Shown piece by piece: positions 2,025 to 28,832 of a stretch of 30,074 nucleotides of DNA. This DNA comes from a virus. The notes under the pieces were generated by a model. That model did no database searches. It saw only the letters and a program-made list of their open reading frames with translations, and was not told the origin of the DNA. Made by a program: the position numbers and the translations under genes. Positions within the stretch are counted from its first letter, which is position 1. The number at the start of each line of letters is the position of its first letter. The stretch is from positions 1 through 30,074 of IMG/VR virus record IMGVR_UViG_3300042294_000464. One strand, 5' to 3'.

Positions 2025-4339
2025 TGGCATTAGTCCTAGCGGATAGAGTATTAGAAACGACTACTGTCGCTGGTACAGGGAACGCTGCATTATCAGGCGC
2101 TCAAGCAAACTATCAACCATTTTCCGTAATCGGCAATGGTTCTACTACCTACTACACGATTGTAGACAATACAAACAACGAGTGGGAAGTGGGTGTTGGT
2201 ACTTATGTATCAGCAGGTAACTACATCTCCCGTGACACAGTGCTGTCATCATCTAACGGTGGTGCATTGGTCTACTTTGGTAGCGGTGACAAGGATATAT
2301 TCCTAGACCTACCATCAGAGGCTGTGTTATTGAGTGCTGGTGATGTAACTGGCCCTGCTAGTGCTGTAGCCAACAACTTTGCTGCGTTCAACATGACCAC
2401 AGGCAAGCTAATTAAGGATAGTGGCTATAACGCTTCTAGCTTTGCTACTGCCGCTCAAGGTGCTAAGGCTGATACGGCTGTGCAACCAGGCTCACTAGGT
2501 TCGGCTGCTTACTTAACTGCTGGTGCAGCTAACGGTGTAGCGACACTAGACGCTGGTGGTAAAGTGCCAACAAGTCAAATCCCACAAATGGGTGACTTAA
2601 ACTATCAAGGCACATGGAACGCATCTACTAACACGCCTACATTAACTAGCTCTGCTGGCACTAAAGGCTTTTACTATGTCGTGTCAGTTGCTGGTTCTAC
2701 TAACCTAAATGGCATTACCGATTGGAAAGTAGGCGATTGGGCTGTGTTTAACGGCTCTGTATGGGAAAAGATAGACAACACGGATGCTGTGACCTCTGTA
2801 AACGGTTTTACAGGCACTGTCGTATTAACGGCTAGTGATGTAGGCGCTCAACCTGCTGGCACTTATGTGACCTCTGTAAGCGCTACAAGCCCTGTTACAA
2901 GCTCTGGTGGCACAACCCCTACTATTGCTATGCCAGCCGCTACTACAAGCGTGTCAGGTTACCTTGCTAGCGCTGATTGGACTACATTTAACGGCAAACA
3001 AGATGCGTTTGGAAGCCAAACAGCTAATTATGTTTACGCAGCTCCTAATGGTTCTGCTGGTGCGCCAACATTCAGAGCATTGGTTGGTGCGGACATTCCA
3101 TCTTTGTCTAGCACATACATACCATACACAGGCGCAAGTAGTGCAATTAATCTAAACGCACAAACAGTAGTCAATGTTGACCACTTAGGTATAGGCACTA
3201 CATCAGTTCCTACTATTTTAGTAAGGGCAATAGGCGATAACAACTCAAGCTCTCGAATAGCAGTTCGTGGCTATTCTAGCAATGCTAACAGCTCATCAAT
3301 GCGAGTTACTAAATTCAGAGGCACTGCTGGTGCGCCTCAAGCACCACAAAGCGGAGATAGCTTAGGTAAGTTTGAGTTAGCAGGTTACGGCACTACATCT
3401 TCAGAAGGTTACCCACAAGCGTCATTTGAAGGCGTTGCTACACAGAGTTGGGGTGCTACTGCTAGGGGAGCTAAGACTTTAATTAAAGTTACGCCTAACA
3501 ATACAATAACGCAAGTTACAGCCGTAACTGTAGACCAAGATAGCAAAGTAACCTTGGCTGGTGCATTAGATGTAACAGGCACAACTACACTAGCTACATC
3601 ATTAAGTGGTTTGGCTAAACTAACATCGGGTGTAGTGTCTGCTGCAACAAGTGGCACAGATTACGCTCCAGCTACATCAGGCACATCTATTCTTTACGGT
3701 AACGGCTCTGGTGGCTTTAGCAATGTAACAATAGGCACAGGCGTATCATTTGCTGGTGGCACATTATCTGCTACAGGTTCAGGCGGTACAGTAACTAGCG
3801 TAACAGGTACAGCCCCTATTGCGTCTACTGGTGGTGCTACACCTGCTATTAGCATTAGCCAGGCTACTACAAGCACAGATGGCTACTTGTCTAGCACAGA
3901 TTGGAATACATTTAACAATAAATCCAATACTACTGGCACTGTAACTAGTGTAGGCGGTACAGGCACAGTCAATGGTATTACGCTAACAGGCACAGTCACT
4001 AGCTCAGGCAACCTAACACTAGGTGGCACATTAGGTGGCATTGGTAACAGTCAGCTAACTAACTCTGCTGTAACGGTAGGTACGACAGCAATCAGCTTAG
4101 GCAGTAGCTCTACTACACTAGCTGGCTTGACTTCAGTTACCTCAACTAACTTAACAGCAACGGCTGCGGTAACAGGTTCAGTAGTATCAGCAACAAACGG
4201 TTTAGTAATAAACAACATGACAATTGGTGCAAGCTATACCATCCCTACAGGCTACTCAGCTAGTTCTGTAGGTGCAGTAACGATAGCAAGTGGTGTAACG
4301 GTAACCGTGCCTAGTGGCTCAAGATGGGTAGTTTTATAA
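2024..4339 (+). CDS. Large tail fibre protein with repeated modules
   Basis: A 771-residue fibre-like protein rich in Gly, Ser, Thr and Ala. The first ~105 residues (MALVLADRVLETT, then GNGSTTYYTIVD and SRDTVLSSSNGG) are the conserved N-terminal virion-attachment domain seen in many phage fibres. The shaft carries two copies of a module of the type TSV-x-TxP-SxGGxTP-TTSxxGYL-S-DWxTFNxK, at about residues 279-327 and 587-632. The C-terminus ends SGVTVTVPSGSRWVVL, a cap also found on the fibre at 19073-19765. It probably forms a trimeric fibre used in host recognition. It starts by TAATG coupling to the portal stop. The position between portal and scaffold, rather than after the tail genes, is notable. 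The exact receptor is unknown. Confidence 0.85.
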   Translation: MALVLADRVLETTTVAGTGNAALSGAQANYQPFSVIGNGSTTYYTIVDNTNNEWEVGVGTYVSAGNYISRDTVLSSSNGGALVYFGSGDKDIFLDLPSEAVLLSAGDVTGPASAVANNFAAFNMTTGKLIKDSGYNASSFATAAQGAKADTAVQPGSLGSAAYLTAGAANGVATLDAGGKVPTSQIPQMGDLNYQGTWNASTNTPTLTSSAGTKGFYYVVSVAGSTNLNGITDWKVGDWAVFNGSVWEKIDNTDAVTSVNGFTGTVVLTASDVGAQPAGTYVTSVSATSPVTSSGGTTPTIAMPAATTSVSGYLASADWTTFNGKQDAFGSQTANYVYAAPNGSAGAPTFRALVGADIPSLSSTYIPYTGASSAINLNAQTVVNVDHLGIGTTSVPTILVRAIGDNNSSSRIAVRGYSSNANSSSMRVTKFRGTAGAPQAPQSGDSLGKFELAGYGTTSSEGYPQASFEGVATQSWGATARGAKTLIKVTPNNTITQVTAVTVDQDSKVTLAGALDVTGTTTLATSLSGLAKLTSGVVSAATSGTDYAPATSGTSILYGNGSGGFSNVTIGTGVSFAGGTLSATGSGGTVTSVTGTAPIASTGGATPAISISQATTSTDGYLSSTDWNTFNNKSNTTGTVTSVGGTGTVNGITLTGTVTSSGNLTLGGTLGGIGNSQLTNSAVTVGTTAISLGSSSTTLAGLTSVTSTNLTATAAVTGSVVSATNGLVINNMTIGASYTIPTGYSASSVGAVTIASGVTVTVPSGSRWVVL

Positions 4340-4349
4340 AGGAAAAAAT

Positions 4350-4913
4350 ATGGCTTCAACGATAAATGCCTCAACTGCTGGTGTAGGTGGTGTAATTACC
4401 ACAGCAGATAATACTGGCAACTTAAACATACAAAGCGGTGGCACTACTAAAGTAGCTATTACATCGGCAGGTGTAGGAATTGTTGGCACAACGACTAACA
4501 ATGACGCTAGTGCAGGATATGTTGGTGAATATATTCAAAGTGTCGTAGCTGCCGATAGTGTAACGGCTGCTGCTAATGGGGTATATAAAGACTTAACATC
4601 AATAACATTGACTGCTGGTGATTGGGATGTAACATTTTTAATGGATATAAATAATGTTGGTGCAGCAGCAACATTGTATGGTGGCGGTATAGGAACAGCG
4701 ACTGGAAACTCAGCAACAGGTTTAGTGATAGGTTCAAACTTTCTCTATACAGGGGGAACGGTATCCGTTGGCGCAAATACGGGTATTGCTATACCTTCTT
4801 ACAGAATATCCATAGCTAGTACCACTACATATTACGGCAAATGTATTGCTTATTACCCAGCTGGTGGTCCACCTAAATTTGGTGGTCGTGTTTCTGCAAG
4901 GAGAGTTAGATAA
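4350..4913 (+). CDS. Short fibre-like virion protein
   Basis: 187 residues. The N-terminal ~45 residues (MASTINASTAGVGGVITTAD, then SGGTTKVAITSAGVGI) match a beta-rich leader common to small phage fibre and appendage genes. The remainder looks like a jelly-roll-type tip ending in basic residues (GGRVSARRVR). The start follows a good AAGGAAAAA ribosome site 10 bases after the previous fibre stop. It is probably a receptor-binding or decorative spike component cotranscribed with its neighbours. Function is inferred from composition and position; no enzymatic motif is visible. Confidence 0.65.
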   Translation: MASTINASTAGVGGVITTADNTGNLNIQSGGTTKVAITSAGVGIVGTTTNNDASAGYVGEYIQSVVAADSVTAAANGVYKDLTSITLTAGDWDVTFLMDINNVGAAATLYGGGIGTATGNSATGLVIGSNFLYTGGTVSVGANTGIAIPSYRISIASTTTYYGKCIAYYPAGGPPKFGGRVSARRVR

Positions 4914-4941
4914 TGAATAACACAGAACAAGGAATAACATT

Positions 4942-5481
4942 ATGAGCGGTGTAATTATAGCTGGTAACACATCGGGTAGTGTCACACTAGACGCACCAGC
5001 AGTATCAGGAAGTACGGTTATTACTCTGCCTACAGTAAGTGGGACTATGCTGACTAATAAATCTGTTGGTACTGTGTTGCAAGTGGTAAGTAGTACACCT
5101 TATACAACAGTACAATCAACAACTTCTGCAGCATATTCATCTACTGCTGTTGTTGCAAGTATAACGCCAACTAGCGCAACTAGCAAAATTTTAATTAAAT
5201 ACACAGGGCAAGCCTATATTGATAGAAATGCTGGAGAGGCTTTACTTGCTATATATAAAAATTCAGGATTTTTAGTTGGGGGGTACGCAATATATTCTGC
5301 TTCAGCAGGATTTATTACAACTTCAGCAAATATTGAGTATTTAGATTCGCCTGCAACTACATCAGCTATTGAATACAGACTATATATAAAAAGTAATAAT
5401 GGTGTAGCAGGTGTAGGTATTAATCCTAATAATAGTACAGACATTCCATCAGTTATTACCCTTATGGAGATAGCGGCATGA
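4942..5481 (+). CDS. Short fibre-like virion protein
   Basis: 179 residues. The N-terminal segment (MSGVIIAGNTSGSVTLDAPA, then STVITLPTVSGTML) is a recurrent anchor in small phage fibre genes: 'GNTSGSVTLDAPAVSG' followed by a glycine/threonine beta region. The following domain (residues ~50-179) has regular alternating hydrophobic strands and no enzymatic motif. The 3' two-thirds of the gene is visibly more AT-rich than its 5' end, as expected for exchangeable receptor-binding tips. Its stop overlaps the next start by four bases (ATGA). Confidence 0.65.
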   Translation: MSGVIIAGNTSGSVTLDAPAVSGSTVITLPTVSGTMLTNKSVGTVLQVVSSTPYTTVQSTTSAAYSSTAVVASITPTSATSKILIKYTGQAYIDRNAGEALLAIYKNSGFLVGGYAIYSASAGFITTSANIEYLDSPATTSAIEYRLYIKSNNGVAGVGINPNNSTDIPSVITLMEIAA

Positions 5482-26375: not shown

Positions 26376-26531
26376 CTAAAAAATTAATTCATTTAAATTG
26401 GTTGGTGTTATTAGCTTTTTAAAAGCTTCTTTATCTTCTGGCCATTGTGCTGCAAGCTCAAAAGCATCACGGTCTTTTTGTGAATTAAATTTGTAAACAA
26501 TAACTTCATTTATTTTTGATTCATCTTGCAT
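26376..26531 (-). CDS. Hypothetical first protein of the minus operon
   Basis: 51 residues (MQDESKINEVIVYKFNSQKD, then AFELAAQWPEDKEAFKKLIT). The start at 26531 is chosen because GGAG lies six bases upstream and because the more upstream ATG at 26564 falls inside the -10 element of the promoter, so it would not be in the transcript. No family is recognised; the short alpha/beta pattern could be a small regulator. Confidence 0.55.
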   Translation of the reverse strand: MQDESKINEVIVYKFNSQKDRDAFELAAQWPEDKEAFKKLITPTNLNELIF

Positions 26532-26562
26532 AACAATCTCCGTTTGCGTTGTTGATGTAGAC

Positions 26563-26590
26563 ATTTTATACCGTTCTTGGAAGCTGTCAA
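26563..26590 (-). promoter_or_regulatory. Strong sigma70-type promoter of the minus operon
   Basis: On the minus strand, a perfect TTGACA (26585-26590) is followed after 16 bases by TAAAAT (26563-26568), with a very AT-rich stretch upstream like an UP element. The predicted start near 26556 gives a leader of about 25 bases before the GGAG and ATG of the first gene. Confidence 0.78.
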
Positions 26591-26645
26591 GCATTATTTA
26601 TATTTATTTTTTTATCAATAACAAGTTAATCATAAGTAAAACTAA

Positions 26646-26675
26646 TTGGACTTTTAAGGGTGTTTGTGGTAGACT
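26646..26675 (+). promoter_or_regulatory. Candidate promoter of the replication operon
   Basis: TTGGAC at 26646-26651 and TAGACT at 26670-26675 are separated by 18 bases, and a TGG immediately before the -10 makes it an extended -10 promoter. It would start transcription near 26682, directly before the structured leader. The match is moderate; the position, diverging from the minus promoter, supports it. Confidence 0.5.
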
Positions 26676-26683
26676 GTTTTTAA

Positions 26684-26791
26684 TTCGCTTGGAGGCGAAA
26701 TAGAGTAAGCCTTGAATAGACTCCTGCACCGACTCGGTGTCCTCCAACTGCCGTAAAACGCAGAGGGGTCTACTCAGGGCTTTTTGTTTTT
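26684..26791 (+). ncRNA. Structured leader RNA / attenuator or small RNA
   Basis: First a hairpin TTCGC-TTGGAG-GCGAA (26684-26699). Then a long closing stem: 26707-26724 pairs with 26765-26782, with one A-C mismatch and two G-U pairs. The stem encloses CACCG-ACT-CGGTG (26727-26739) and CTGC / GCAG (26748-26763), making a three-way junction. The closing stem runs straight into TTTTTGTTTTT, the form of an intrinsic terminator. Then come AAGGAG and the start of the replication gene. It could be an attenuator, a riboswitch-like leader or a free ~110-nt RNA. It does not match a class that I can name. Confidence 0.6.
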
Positions 26792-26804
26792 AAGGAGTAC
26801 CATT

Positions 26805-27470
26805 ATGGCAGAACGCAGAATGTTTGCAAAGACAATCATTGACAGCGATGCTTTTCTAGATATGCCCCTCTCTACCCAGGCTTTATACTTTCACCTTTCC
26901 ATGAGGGCCGATGACGATGGGTTCATTAACAATGCTAAAAAAATTCAAAGAATGTTAGGCTGCACAGACGATGACATGAAAATACTGTTATCTAAGAATT
27001 TTGTAATTCCATTTGAAACTGGTGTATGTGTAATCAAGCATTGGAAAATACACAATCTTATTCAAAAAGACAGATACAAACCTACTGTATATGTTGAGCA
27101 TAAAGACAAATTATCCTTAAAAGACAACAATGTATATACGCTGGATACAGTATGGATACAAGATGGATACAAAGTGGATACGCAGGTTAGTATAGGTGAG
27201 GTTAGTTTAGTTAAGGCTAATAACGATGAGTTTGATATTTTTTGGAAAGAATACCCAAACAAAAGCGGTAAAGCTAGAGCTTTAAAAGCATGGATTAAAG
27301 CTAAACCTGATTTAAATGCTGTGCTTGGAGCTTTGTCGTGGCAAAAAGAAACTAGGCAATGGAAAAGTAAATACATTCCAATGGCAGCTACTTATATTAA
27401 TGATGCTAGATGGGATGACGAAAATCCTGAAGATGAAACTTATAACGACATATTTGCAGGTGCAATATGA
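26805..27470 (+). CDS. Replisome organiser / replication initiator-like protein
   Basis: 221 residues from ATG 26805 with AAGGAG eight bases upstream. The N-terminal block MAERRMFAKTIIDSDAFLDM then PLSTQALYFHLSMRADDDGF is the winged-helix start of phage replisome organisers, followed by IKHWKIHNLIQKDRYKPT. The C-terminal domain FDIFWKEYPNKSGKARALKA through SKYIPMAATYINDARWDDE resembles the DnaT/O-type C-terminus that contacts helicase loaders. It likely binds the phage origin and recruits the helicase encoded two genes downstream. Confidence 0.78.
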   Translation: MAERRMFAKTIIDSDAFLDMPLSTQALYFHLSMRADDDGFINNAKKIQRMLGCTDDDMKILLSKNFVIPFETGVCVIKHWKIHNLIQKDRYKPTVYVEHKDKLSLKDNNVYTLDTVWIQDGYKVDTQVSIGEVSLVKANNDEFDIFWKEYPNKSGKARALKAWIKAKPDLNAVLGALSWQKETRQWKSKYIPMAATYINDARWDDENPEDETYNDIFAGAI

Positions 27471-27871
27471 TTAATAATCTATTAAGCCGATTAAACAAGG
27501 TTAAGTCTACTGGTCGCAACTCTTATTTGGCTTGTTGCCCAGCTCACGATGACAGAAGCCCTAGCCTATCCATTAAAGAGGAAGCAGACGGCCACATACT
27601 ATTGCATTGCTTTGCTGGGTGCAGTGCTGTTGATGTTGTCGGGGCAATAGGTGTTGACATAGGTGACTTGTTTCCAGAGCAAGTTCACCACAAAGCGCCA
27701 GTTAAGAAGAAGTTTTACGCTACTGACATTTTAGAGGCCATCAAGTATGAGTCGCAAATCGTTCTTTTAGCTGCGTTTGAGCTAAAGAAAAACAAATCGC
27801 TTGACGAAACTGACTTACAGCGTTTACAGTTAGCTTACGAAAGAATTAGAGAGGCGGTAGATTATGAGTAA
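27467..27871 (+). CDS. CHC2 zinc-finger primase-domain protein
   Basis: 134 residues overlapping the preceding stop (ATGA). The motif CCPAHDDRSPSLSIKE with HILLHCFAGCSAVDVVGAIG forms the CHC2 zinc ribbon of DnaG/gp4-type primases; zinc ligands are probably Cys24, His27, Cys48 and Cys52. The catalytic TOPRIM domain is missing, so this is either a DNA-recognition subunit working with another primase or a regulatory remnant. It sits between the initiator and helicase genes. Confidence 0.75.
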   Translation: MINNLLSRLNKVKSTGRNSYLACCPAHDDRSPSLSIKEEADGHILLHCFAGCSAVDVVGAIGVDIGDLFPEQVHHKAPVKKKFYATDILEAIKYESQIVLLAAFELKKNKSLDETDLQRLQLAYERIREAVDYE

Positions 27872-28832
27872 CCTAGAAAGAGGCGCTACAGCTTTAGACG
27901 AGGCTAGACGCAAACGAGCAAGCATGATGTTGCCCAAGGTTGACTTTGAAGGCTTTATGAAAGCCAGGGAAGAAGACAAGGCTAATGTTAAGTCAGCAAG
28001 CCAGTATCAGTCAGAGGTTATAGACTACTTTTACAAAGACGAGCAGATGCAAGGCGTTAAGCTGCCTTGGGAAAAGACCTTTGACCAGTTTAGGTTGCGT
28101 TTAGGTGAGGTAAGTCTGTGGTCGGGTATTAACGGCCATGGTAAGAGTCAGCTAGTGGGCCAAGTGATTAACTCTATCGTGCAGCAGAATTTTAAGGTCT
28201 GTGTAGCTTCTTTTGAGATGCACCCATACTCAACTTTACAGCGTATGACTAGACAGGCCACAGGCACAGAAAAGCCTACCGAGAAGTTTATTGGCGAATA
28301 CTTTACATTCCTAGACAACAGGCTGTATATGTATGACCAGCAAGGAACTGTAAACGGTGAGCGAGTAATTGCTGTTTTGTATTATGTGGCTGAAACGCTA
28401 GGTGTGCAGCATTTTGTGATTGACAGCTTAATGAAGTGCGGTGTAAGGTCTGATGACATGAACGCTCAAAAGGAGTTCTTGGATAAGCTTTGTGCTGCGG
28501 CTAGGGATTTGAATGTCCATGTGCATTTAATTGCTCACAGCCGCAAAGGTGAGGATGAGTTTAGCCCACCTAACAAGATGGATGTAGCTGGCTCGGCAGA
28601 CATTACCAATCAAGTAGATAATGTAATGACCGTCTGGCGTAATAAGCGTAAAGAAAAGGCAGTAAGAACTGGCAAGGCAAAAGAGGAAGAGTTAAACGCA
28701 CCTGATTGCTTGTTGATATGTGACAAGCAGCGTCATGGTGAATGGGAAGGCGAAATTGCATTGTGGTTTGATGCAGCGTCTATGCGATACAAGGGAAGCC
28801 AACACGAACGAGTGTGGCAATTAAAATTTTAG
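27864..28832 (+). CDS. DnaB/gp4-like replicative helicase
   Basis: 322 residues. The RecA-like core shows Walker A SGINGHGKS (87-95), the ASFEMHP segment (115-121), Walker B HFVIDSL (183-189), the HLIAHSRK motif (221-228) and the C-terminal DKQRHGEWEGEIALWFD (287-303). This is the helicase part of DnaB or T7 gp4-type enzymes without a primase. It would unwind DNA at the replication fork as a hexamer. It overlaps the CHC2 gene by 8 bases, so primase zinc domain and helicase are encoded separately but coupled. Confidence 0.85.
   Translation: MSNLERGATALDEARRKRASMMLPKVDFEGFMKAREEDKANVKSASQYQSEVIDYFYKDEQMQGVKLPWEKTFDQFRLRLGEVSLWSGINGHGKSQLVGQVINSIVQQNFKVCVASFEMHPYSTLQRMTRQATGTEKPTEKFIGEYFTFLDNRLYMYDQQGTVNGERVIAVLYYVAETLGVQHFVIDSLMKCGVRSDDMNAQKEFLDKLCAAARDLNVHVHLIAHSRKGEDEFSPPNKMDVAGSADITNQVDNVMTVWRNKRKEKAVRTGKAKEEELNAPDCLLICDKQRHGEWEGEIALWFDAASMRYKGSQHERVWQLKF

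Follow-up and report, generated by a model that had tools for sequence, protein, structure and literature searches.

A doubly pseudoknotted, terminator-like leader RNA at the head of early operons in phages known mainly from freshwater sequencing

The virus record IMGVR_UViG_3300042294_000464 (positions 1 to 30,074, that is, the whole stretch of 30,074 nt that was analysed and is referred to as the window) is that of a podovirus-like phage with a P22/Mx8-type portal, as judged from protein matches, for which no close cultured relative was found in the phage collection. Its replication genes (table 1) share the right side of the window with NinB, and SSB and an ERF annealing protein are encoded on the left side. 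Between the replication initiator and a divergent leftward operon lies an intergenic region that contains a sigma-70-like promoter, with a start predicted at approximately 26682–26684, followed by an unusually stable stretch: nucleotides 26682–26804 fold to −49.3 kcal/mol, as compared with −31.5 ± 3.4 kcal/mol for dinucleotide shuffles (z = −5.2), and none of 200 shuffles was as stable. The question raised by this locus is what such a fold, inserted between a promoter and a replication initiator, is selected for, and what it does to the operon behind it.

Architecture of the RNA and its conservation

With the initiator protein of the window as the query, 80 loci were obtained from IMG/VR, and in many of them the same RNA was found directly upstream of the initiator gene. 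A covariance model (R1), built from six other phages with the window left out, retrieved the window at 71.9 bits (E = 5e-15), and with it 25 further true copies in a set of 100 records. In viral contigs, at least 120 stretches were matched by a degenerate DNA pattern describing the RNA, most of them true members according to the covariance model, and at least 100 IMG/VR contigs carry the RNA, abundance counts of the family being lower bounds from a sample biased to the search pattern. The sequence-only reading of this DNA had tied the reality of the fold to compensatory changes in relatives, and these are abundant: among 17 distinct RNAs, 96.7% of the cells at helical positions are paired and two-sided changes are found at 29 of the 39 pairs (17.4 in shuffles, 4–8 with slid partners), and among 69 distinct RNAs the corresponding values are 97.3% and 32 of 39 (20.5 ± 1.6 shuffled, 10–18 slid). 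In the latter set, G·U cells outnumber A·C cells by 132 to 3, from which it follows that selection acts on the plus strand as RNA, and single-stranded DNA or a minus-strand structure as the functional form is ruled out by the same asymmetry. A leader peptide in place of this RNA (class 1 in what follows) is likewise ruled out, by compensatory changes in every helix.

The family member in the window spans 26684–26782. The order of its elements from 5′ to 3′ is that of the family as a whole, namely the P0 hairpin, a variable linker, a PK2 strand, the 5′ strand of P1, UG, the P2 hairpin, UC, a PK1 strand, the P3 hairpin, A, the 3′ strand of P1 and the U-tract. A three-way junction, the T5GT5, the AAGGAG and the ATG are all found where they had been placed from the sequence alone, the two inner hairpins described at that stage being P2 and P3; the closing stem then drawn (26707–26724 with 26765–26782) does exist, each of its arms having been taken one base too long. 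However, the fold is not a plain three-way junction, being doubly pseudoknotted (PK1 and PK2) and including the P0 hairpin.

Table 1. Features of the leader RNA and of the surrounding genes, in window positions.
Feature	Position	Strand	Details and evidence
72-aa protein of unknown function, first gene of the divergent leftward operon	26376–26594	−	left bound of the intergenic region
Sigma-70-like promoter	26646–26675	+	TTGGAC 26646–26651, 18 nt, TAGACT 26670–26675 (sequence)
5′ hairpin P0	26684–26699	+	26684–26688 with 26695–26699, loop UUGGAG; 98% of cells paired, two-sided changes at 4/5 pairs (69 homologues)
PK1, 5′ strand (P0 loop UUGGAG)	26689–26694	+	pairs with 26742–26747; 99% of cells paired (69 homologues)
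PK2, 5′ strand (GAGU)	26703–26706	+	pairs with ACUC of the P2 loop, 26732–26735
P1, 5′ strand (closing terminator-like stem)	26708–26724	+	pairs with 26765–26781; two-sided changes at 16/16 counted P1 pairs (69 homologues)
P2 hairpin	26727–26739	+	26727–26730 with 26736–26739; 100% of cells paired, two-sided changes at 4/4 pairs (69 homologues)
PK2, 3′ strand (ACUC, apical loop of P2)	26732–26735	+	partner-shuffle test
PK1, 3′ strand (CUCCAA, junction between P2 and P3)	26742–26747	+	compensatory changes
P3 hairpin, A-rich loop	26748–26763	+	26748–26751 with 26760–26763; 98% of cells paired, two-sided changes at 3/4 pairs (69 homologues)
P1, 3′ strand	26765–26781	+	compensatory changes
U-tract T5GT5, terminator-like	26781–26791	+	adjoins the stem; 26781 also in the last P1 pair
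Shine–Dalgarno AAGGAG (26792–26797) and start codon ATG (26805–26807)	26792–26807	+	sequence
DnaD-like helicase loader / replication initiator, first gene of the operon	26805–27470	+	PHROG 5708, E = 2e-72
CHC2 zinc-finger primase-like protein	27467–27871	+	Pfam PF01807 and PHROG
DnaB-like helicase	27864–28832	+	Pfam PF03796 and PHROG

PK1 joins the P0 loop to the strand that separates P2 from P3, and its two sides co-vary as sets (UUGGAG/CUCCAA, UUGCAG/CUGCAA, UUGGCG/CGCCAA, UUGACG/CGUCAA, UUGGAA/UUCCAA); at alignment pair 10/76, for example, C-G is found in 55 of the 69 homologues, A-U in 8 and U-A in 6. In PK2, the linker that follows P0 pairs with the apical loop of P2 (UGAGUA/UACUCA, CUAGUA/UACUAG, UUAGGUA/UACCUAA), which is fully taken up by this interaction, over 4 bp in the window and usually 7 bp in relatives. 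With their own partners these strands form 6.4 contiguous pairs versus 4.6 with crossed partners in the first set of relatives, and 6.69 bp versus 4.95 ± 0.11 bp with shuffled ones in the larger set (52 linker/loop combinations); the PK2 triplet is hypervariable but compensated. The loop of P3 is of the GNRA type in many relatives. Outside the helices, invariance is limited to five alignment positions, U48, G49, U73, C74 and A117, all of them junction bases (the UG, UC and A named above).

The closing stem P1 comprises 17 positions, with a single break 9 or 10 positions from the base in 64 of the 69 homologues and almost none elsewhere. The place of the break is kept and its identity varies (A × G, U × U, C × U, A × C), the single internal mismatch in the window being A26716 × C26773. 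In one sub-family the outer part of P1 seemed to be invariant, an appearance that was discounted because the subset had been picked by that very sequence, which makes the argument circular. A variant RNA (L017, 288–376) is devoid of 12 nt of the 5′ strand of P1, with the 3′ strand intact; its terminator stem would be lost, unless the gap is an assembly error.

The geometry around the fold is also conserved. In all 77 distinct homologues the stem is directly followed by five U residues, and the next positions are U in 96, 88 and 88% of them, the length of the tract across the family being U5–9; in 71 of the 77, the distance from the first U to the start codon is 16–20 nt, with the window as an outlier (24 nt). 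The invariance of the U residues near the stem, with later positions variable despite the kept distance from the start codon, is what a terminator needs. Upstream of the fold, the end of the −10 box is mostly 5–11 nt 5′ of the first base of P0 in the 77 homologues (mean best score, 8.4 of 12, versus 5.9 in shuffled upstream DNA), so that transcription should begin at the fold itself. The layout of an attenuator is, thus, present, with a promoter directly upstream, a terminator stem with a U-tract, and a gene on the same strand downstream, and the original description is borne out in that the leader lies just behind an early promoter and ahead of the replication initiator, and closes with a terminator-like stem and a U-tract. 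A promoter and terminator scan of the window left the terminator unreported because the loop limit of the scan is 8 nt.

Carriers of the RNA and its replacements at the same locus

The carriers are many phages, known mainly from freshwater sequencing. The RNA was found at 100 bits in MW202462, a complete phage record from a spring, in which a hypothetical protein (UOF77143.1; L311 817–1059, minus strand) is annotated antisense across it; this is probably not a real gene. A prophage and host search across 84,980 genomes gave only one true match, on a 3.4-kb contig of a Burkholderiales metagenome-assembled genome, and the search of plasmids gave none. With model R2, no match to the RNA was obtained in four relatives from the databases that have a similar replication protein, namely Limnohabitans phage DC33, Xanthomonas phage PBR31, Methylophilales phage Venkman and MW202640; in PBR31, MW202640 and Venkman a gene annotated as repressor or Cro-like is present at or near the place of the RNA. 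By taking into account the spring phage, the Burkholderiales contig and the related replication proteins of the named phages, betaproteobacterial freshwater hosts are likely.

The gene that follows the RNA varies, and may encode one of several unrelated initiator types, an HNH endonuclease, a ParB-like protein, a methylase or small unknown proteins, and the position of the RNA relative to it is constant whatever that gene is. The RNA is, therefore, not specific to replication genes, on which the initial proposal had it act. One copy of the RNA per record is found in 32 of the 34 records with a match. Two divergent copies are present in L239 (2853–2956, minus; 3624–3723, plus) and in L272 (1968–2071, minus; 2739–2838, plus), and in L239 each copy heads one of the divergent operons and is followed by an HNH endonuclease gene. 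In L014 the RNA (3915–4019) precedes a DNA-methylase-like gene (MKVLIACEFSG...) approximately 700 nt upstream of the initiator, an arrangement indicating that the RNA can be separated from the replication genes by inserted accessory genes.

Comparison of closely related loci revealed that the RNA is replaced as a cassette. Between L005 and L006 the identity is 88% upstream, 52% (chance level) in the RNA and 99% downstream, so that, between conserved flanks, the whole RNA has been swapped for an unrelated one built on the same plan. Between L001 and L085 the upstream region is 95% identical, the RNAs are 49% identical and the downstream gene differs too. The replacing RNA (class 2) consists of a long 5′ hairpin and a terminator stem of 17 positions, with loops that match each other; the stem contains a spot of wobble or mismatch 10–11 positions from its base, and U7–8 and the Shine–Dalgarno sequence come next. 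Its loop pairs, read by eye without controls, are GGACAAG/CUUGUCC, GGACUAG/CUAGUCC, GGUCAAG/CUUGACC and GAGCAG/CUGCUC, and it is carried at the same locus by L083 (4840–4930), L004, L006, L022, L029, L085, L101, L278, L288 and others. A third form, in L009 and L023 (approx. 4860–4985 in the latter), sets a GUGCAAG loop against a CUUGCAC terminator loop, again as read by eye. That different RNAs with one ground plan are found at the same locus points to a single functional slot.

Other observations were made in the course of these comparisons. In class 2, in addition to the covarying complementarity of 6–7 nt between loops, an alternative hairpin (UGAUGCC-UCU-GGUAUCA) competes in a switch-like manner with the lower half of the 5′ hairpin; in the third form, too, an alternative hairpin (ACUGCU-AUUA-AGCAGU) was noted. 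In L082, L087 and L092 the promoter is the same, and the place of the RNA is taken by a conserved open reading frame of 39 codons, with a short hairpin ahead of it, for a peptide containing ISFYSIAES and RGFYLLDLSSSPLLNR. A recurrent element, TTTTTTTGGGTGAAAGCTATGYRAGTARCCCATCTATTC, is found approximately 4–5 kb downstream of the helicase gene and before different genes (L100 9674, L082 9918, L084 10940, L088 10086 and others), and is possibly another structured or promoter element. Finally, L083 contains on the minus strand (1022–1088) a strong promoter (TTGACA...TATAAT) and a hairpin leader (ATCGGT...ACCGAT), with a weak match to freshwater-2, ahead of a leftward gene starting MAYVSNLKK.

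Comparison with known RNAs

No match was obtained with the covariance models of Rfam 15 at the gathering score or at a permissive E-value for the window and the relative L166, and the class-2 leader is also without a match, in agreement with the first impression that the RNA resembles no nameable family. No description of it was found in the open-licence literature searched. It is, thus, rated as a new RNA family, the kind being known (phage leader and attenuator RNAs) and the architecture new. A CRISPR/tracrRNA likeness of the P2 hairpin of the window (CACCGACTCGGTG) was rejected, the stem sequence not being conserved in relatives.

Several known systems share one or another property with the phage RNA. 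In the pistol ribozyme the loop of a 5′ hairpin also pairs with a junction strand, so that the topology of PK1, and only this, is alike; the phage RNA has no Rfam match. The put RNA of phage HK022 acts in cis, as two simple stem-loops at the start of the early transcripts in both directions, and causes the polymerase to ignore terminators. The place at the start of early transcripts, and the divergent copies of L239 and L272, recall put, whereas the phage RNA itself ends in a terminator-like stem. In the satellite phage P4, the CI RNA derives from the structured leader of the replication operon, the short form of which goes with premature termination, and, once processed, it pairs with the leader in trans to provide immunity. 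The likeness here is that of a structured replication-operon leader, and no Rfam family matched the phage RNA. Freshwater-2 (RF02980) is similarly aquatic and cis-regulatory, with a U-tract, AAGGAG and the start codon right after the fold; identity with it was rejected (19.3 bits versus a cut-off of 49.9 bits, and none of 15 records over the cut-off), and its few likely members in viral contigs fold differently and precede a gene starting MGRPLxKK.

Riboswitches provide further parallels. In the ZTP (pfl) riboswitch a pseudoknotted domain is invaded by the forming terminator, and non-complementary stem positions tune the read-through (PMC10085676). As in the ZTP and fluoride riboswitches, in the phage RNA a 5′ domain is pseudoknotted with the region that the terminator hairpin needs, and the terminator, the U-tract and a gene come next. 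However, there is no match in sequence or by covariance model, the phage RNA has a different fold (P0/PK1, PK2, and P2 and P3 inside the terminator stem), conserved unpaired bases of the kind that bind a ligand are almost lacking, the genes belong to early operons rather than being metabolic, and the closed structure and the terminator look compatible at equilibrium in the geometric model described below. IsrK of the Salmonella prophage Gifsy-1 has its own promoter and a terminator that is passed by part of the transcripts, so that both a short RNA and an mRNA are made, and it acts in trans on its own read-through mRNA to control an antiterminator cascade (PMC4825925). The likeness is that of a phage-borne RNA with its own promoter and terminator; the action of IsrK in trans sets it apart, and no structural relation is apparent.

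Function of the leader and its possible meaning

The reading to which we lean, with moderate confidence and on the basis of the sequence pattern, is that of a cis-acting leader RNA that would operate as a promoter-proximal, structure-controlled partial terminator, or attenuator, of the phage early operon, and that probably sets the output of the replication genes. Transcription would start at the first base of P0, the hairpin that would form first as the RNA emerges. PK1 would follow, with capture of the P2–P3 junction strand by the P0 loop, and so would PK2, with capture of the P2 loop by the linker, to yield a compact head (P0, PK1, P2, PK2 and P3) that would be complete before the last strand of P1 is made. 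By closing the 17-position stem, broken once 9–10 positions from its base, this strand would generate, with the U5–9 tract, an intrinsic terminator. A share of the polymerases would stop at the U-tract and release an RNA of approximately 100 nt, and the remaining ones would read through into the replication mRNA, with its Shine–Dalgarno sequence right after the U-tract. The fold with its two pseudoknots, the plus-strand sense of the RNA, the spacing of promoter, U-tract and start codon, and the cassette swaps are established by the sequence comparisons, whereas termination, partial read-through, regulation and its trigger are what we infer in this scheme, in which the head and the placed mismatch would set, and may regulate, the read-through fraction.

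This partial-terminator reading is favoured by the stem and U-tract, which fit an intrinsic terminator, by the place at the head of the transcript with a gene behind, and by a head that would fold before P1. Also in its favour are the covariation of all helices, the predicted start at P0, the cassette swaps, the repressor or Cro-like genes in three of the relatives devoid of the RNA, and the fixed place of the break in P1, the counterparts of which tune read-through in ZTP riboswitches (PMC10085676). Stepwise folding of the window RNA, with a program that does not consider pseudoknots, showed a transient helix of the PK1 strand until P1 can close, and the 5′ strand of P1 held inside an enclosed region before that event. 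In a crude rigid-helix model, full P1 and both pseudoknots were found to be nearly compatible, with a strain of 2 Å for a 7-bp PK2, which is relieved by opening 3 bp at either end, and none for the form of the window. Mutual exclusion of the pseudoknots and full P1 is, thus, unsupported by this crude geometry: at equilibrium the terminator could close with the head in place, and any opposition between the two would have to be kinetic. A clear conserved anti-terminator helix was looked for and none was found.

The near-fixed distance of the start codon counts against a partial terminator in that it would also suit a role in translation. On it is built the alternative that survives best, which we regard as possible though unlikely: a 5′ untranslated module for mRNA stability or translation, with a fold that buries the 5′ end, a U-tract that loads the ribosome or S1, a closing stem just outside the ribosome footprint, and little or no termination. 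Such a module would explain why the start codon is kept at 16–20 nt from the stem whatever the gene, and the near lack of conserved unpaired bases would reflect selection on shape; the modelled geometry would permit one compact fold including P1, and the predicted transcription start at the first paired base is also in line with it. However, a long stem with a GC-rich base and at least five U residues, invariant next to the stem, is the canonical intrinsic terminator, and the spacing is longer in the window (24 nt).

Doubtful as well, and ranked after the untranslated module, is a small RNA acting in trans, the terminated product of approximately 100 nt being the functional species (on phage or host messages, or in immunity as in P4 and IsrK) and the replication genes being served by leakage. 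The RNA has its own promoter and terminator and a compact fold, it is replaced by unrelated RNAs of the same ground plan, and the hypervariable but compensated PK2 triplet could be read in this sense. IsrK provides a precedent, being encoded by a prophage, acting in trans and having a terminator that is read through (PMC4825925). However, the RNA is always found just before a gene at a near-fixed distance, with no copy detected away from such a gene, which argues for a role in cis, and the obvious single-stranded stretches are paired internally and covary with their own partners.

With respect to the attenuator or riboswitch-like switch proposed by the sequence-only reading, an attenuator, or an RNA made by partial termination, remains the best interpretation, and the riboswitch is weakened because five invariant bases outside the helices, all at junctions, leave little room for a ligand pocket. 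A metabolite riboswitch or a self-cleaving ribozyme, suggested by a pseudoknotted three-way junction ahead of an operon and by the PK1-like pairing of pistol ribozymes, is very improbable: such bases are too few for a pocket or an active site, Rfam gave no match even at permissive thresholds, and unrelated RNAs replace the RNA at the same locus. A chance structure or an artefact of one genome can be dismissed, given at least 100 contigs, E values down to 1e-26 with models that most of them were not used to build, and far lower values in the slid-partner controls.

As to the meaning of these findings, a broader interpretation is put forward as speculation, and on the whole we give it little credence. 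According to it, many freshwater phages would carry an RNA-only control device at the place that in some relatives is occupied by a repressor or Cro-type gene; this pseudoknotted leader, swapped as a cassette and having arisen independently in two or more unrelated forms on one ground plan (a 5′ hairpin loop pairing into the head of the terminator stem), would set early and replication gene expression, and its variable pairing may serve to tell the early transcripts of different phages apart, in an RNA-based competition or immunity. What has been found is a common and strongly conserved RNA, undescribed as far as searched, that either controls the first transcript of many uncultured phages or accompanies it, and that offers an RNA handle on early gene control where phages have no obvious repressor at that place. 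For studies of co-transcriptional folding, the family also offers many natural variants of a putative terminator that combines two pseudoknots with a built-in mismatch, and the replacement of the RNA by a different one of the same plan makes its function directly testable, the function being whatever both RNAs do.
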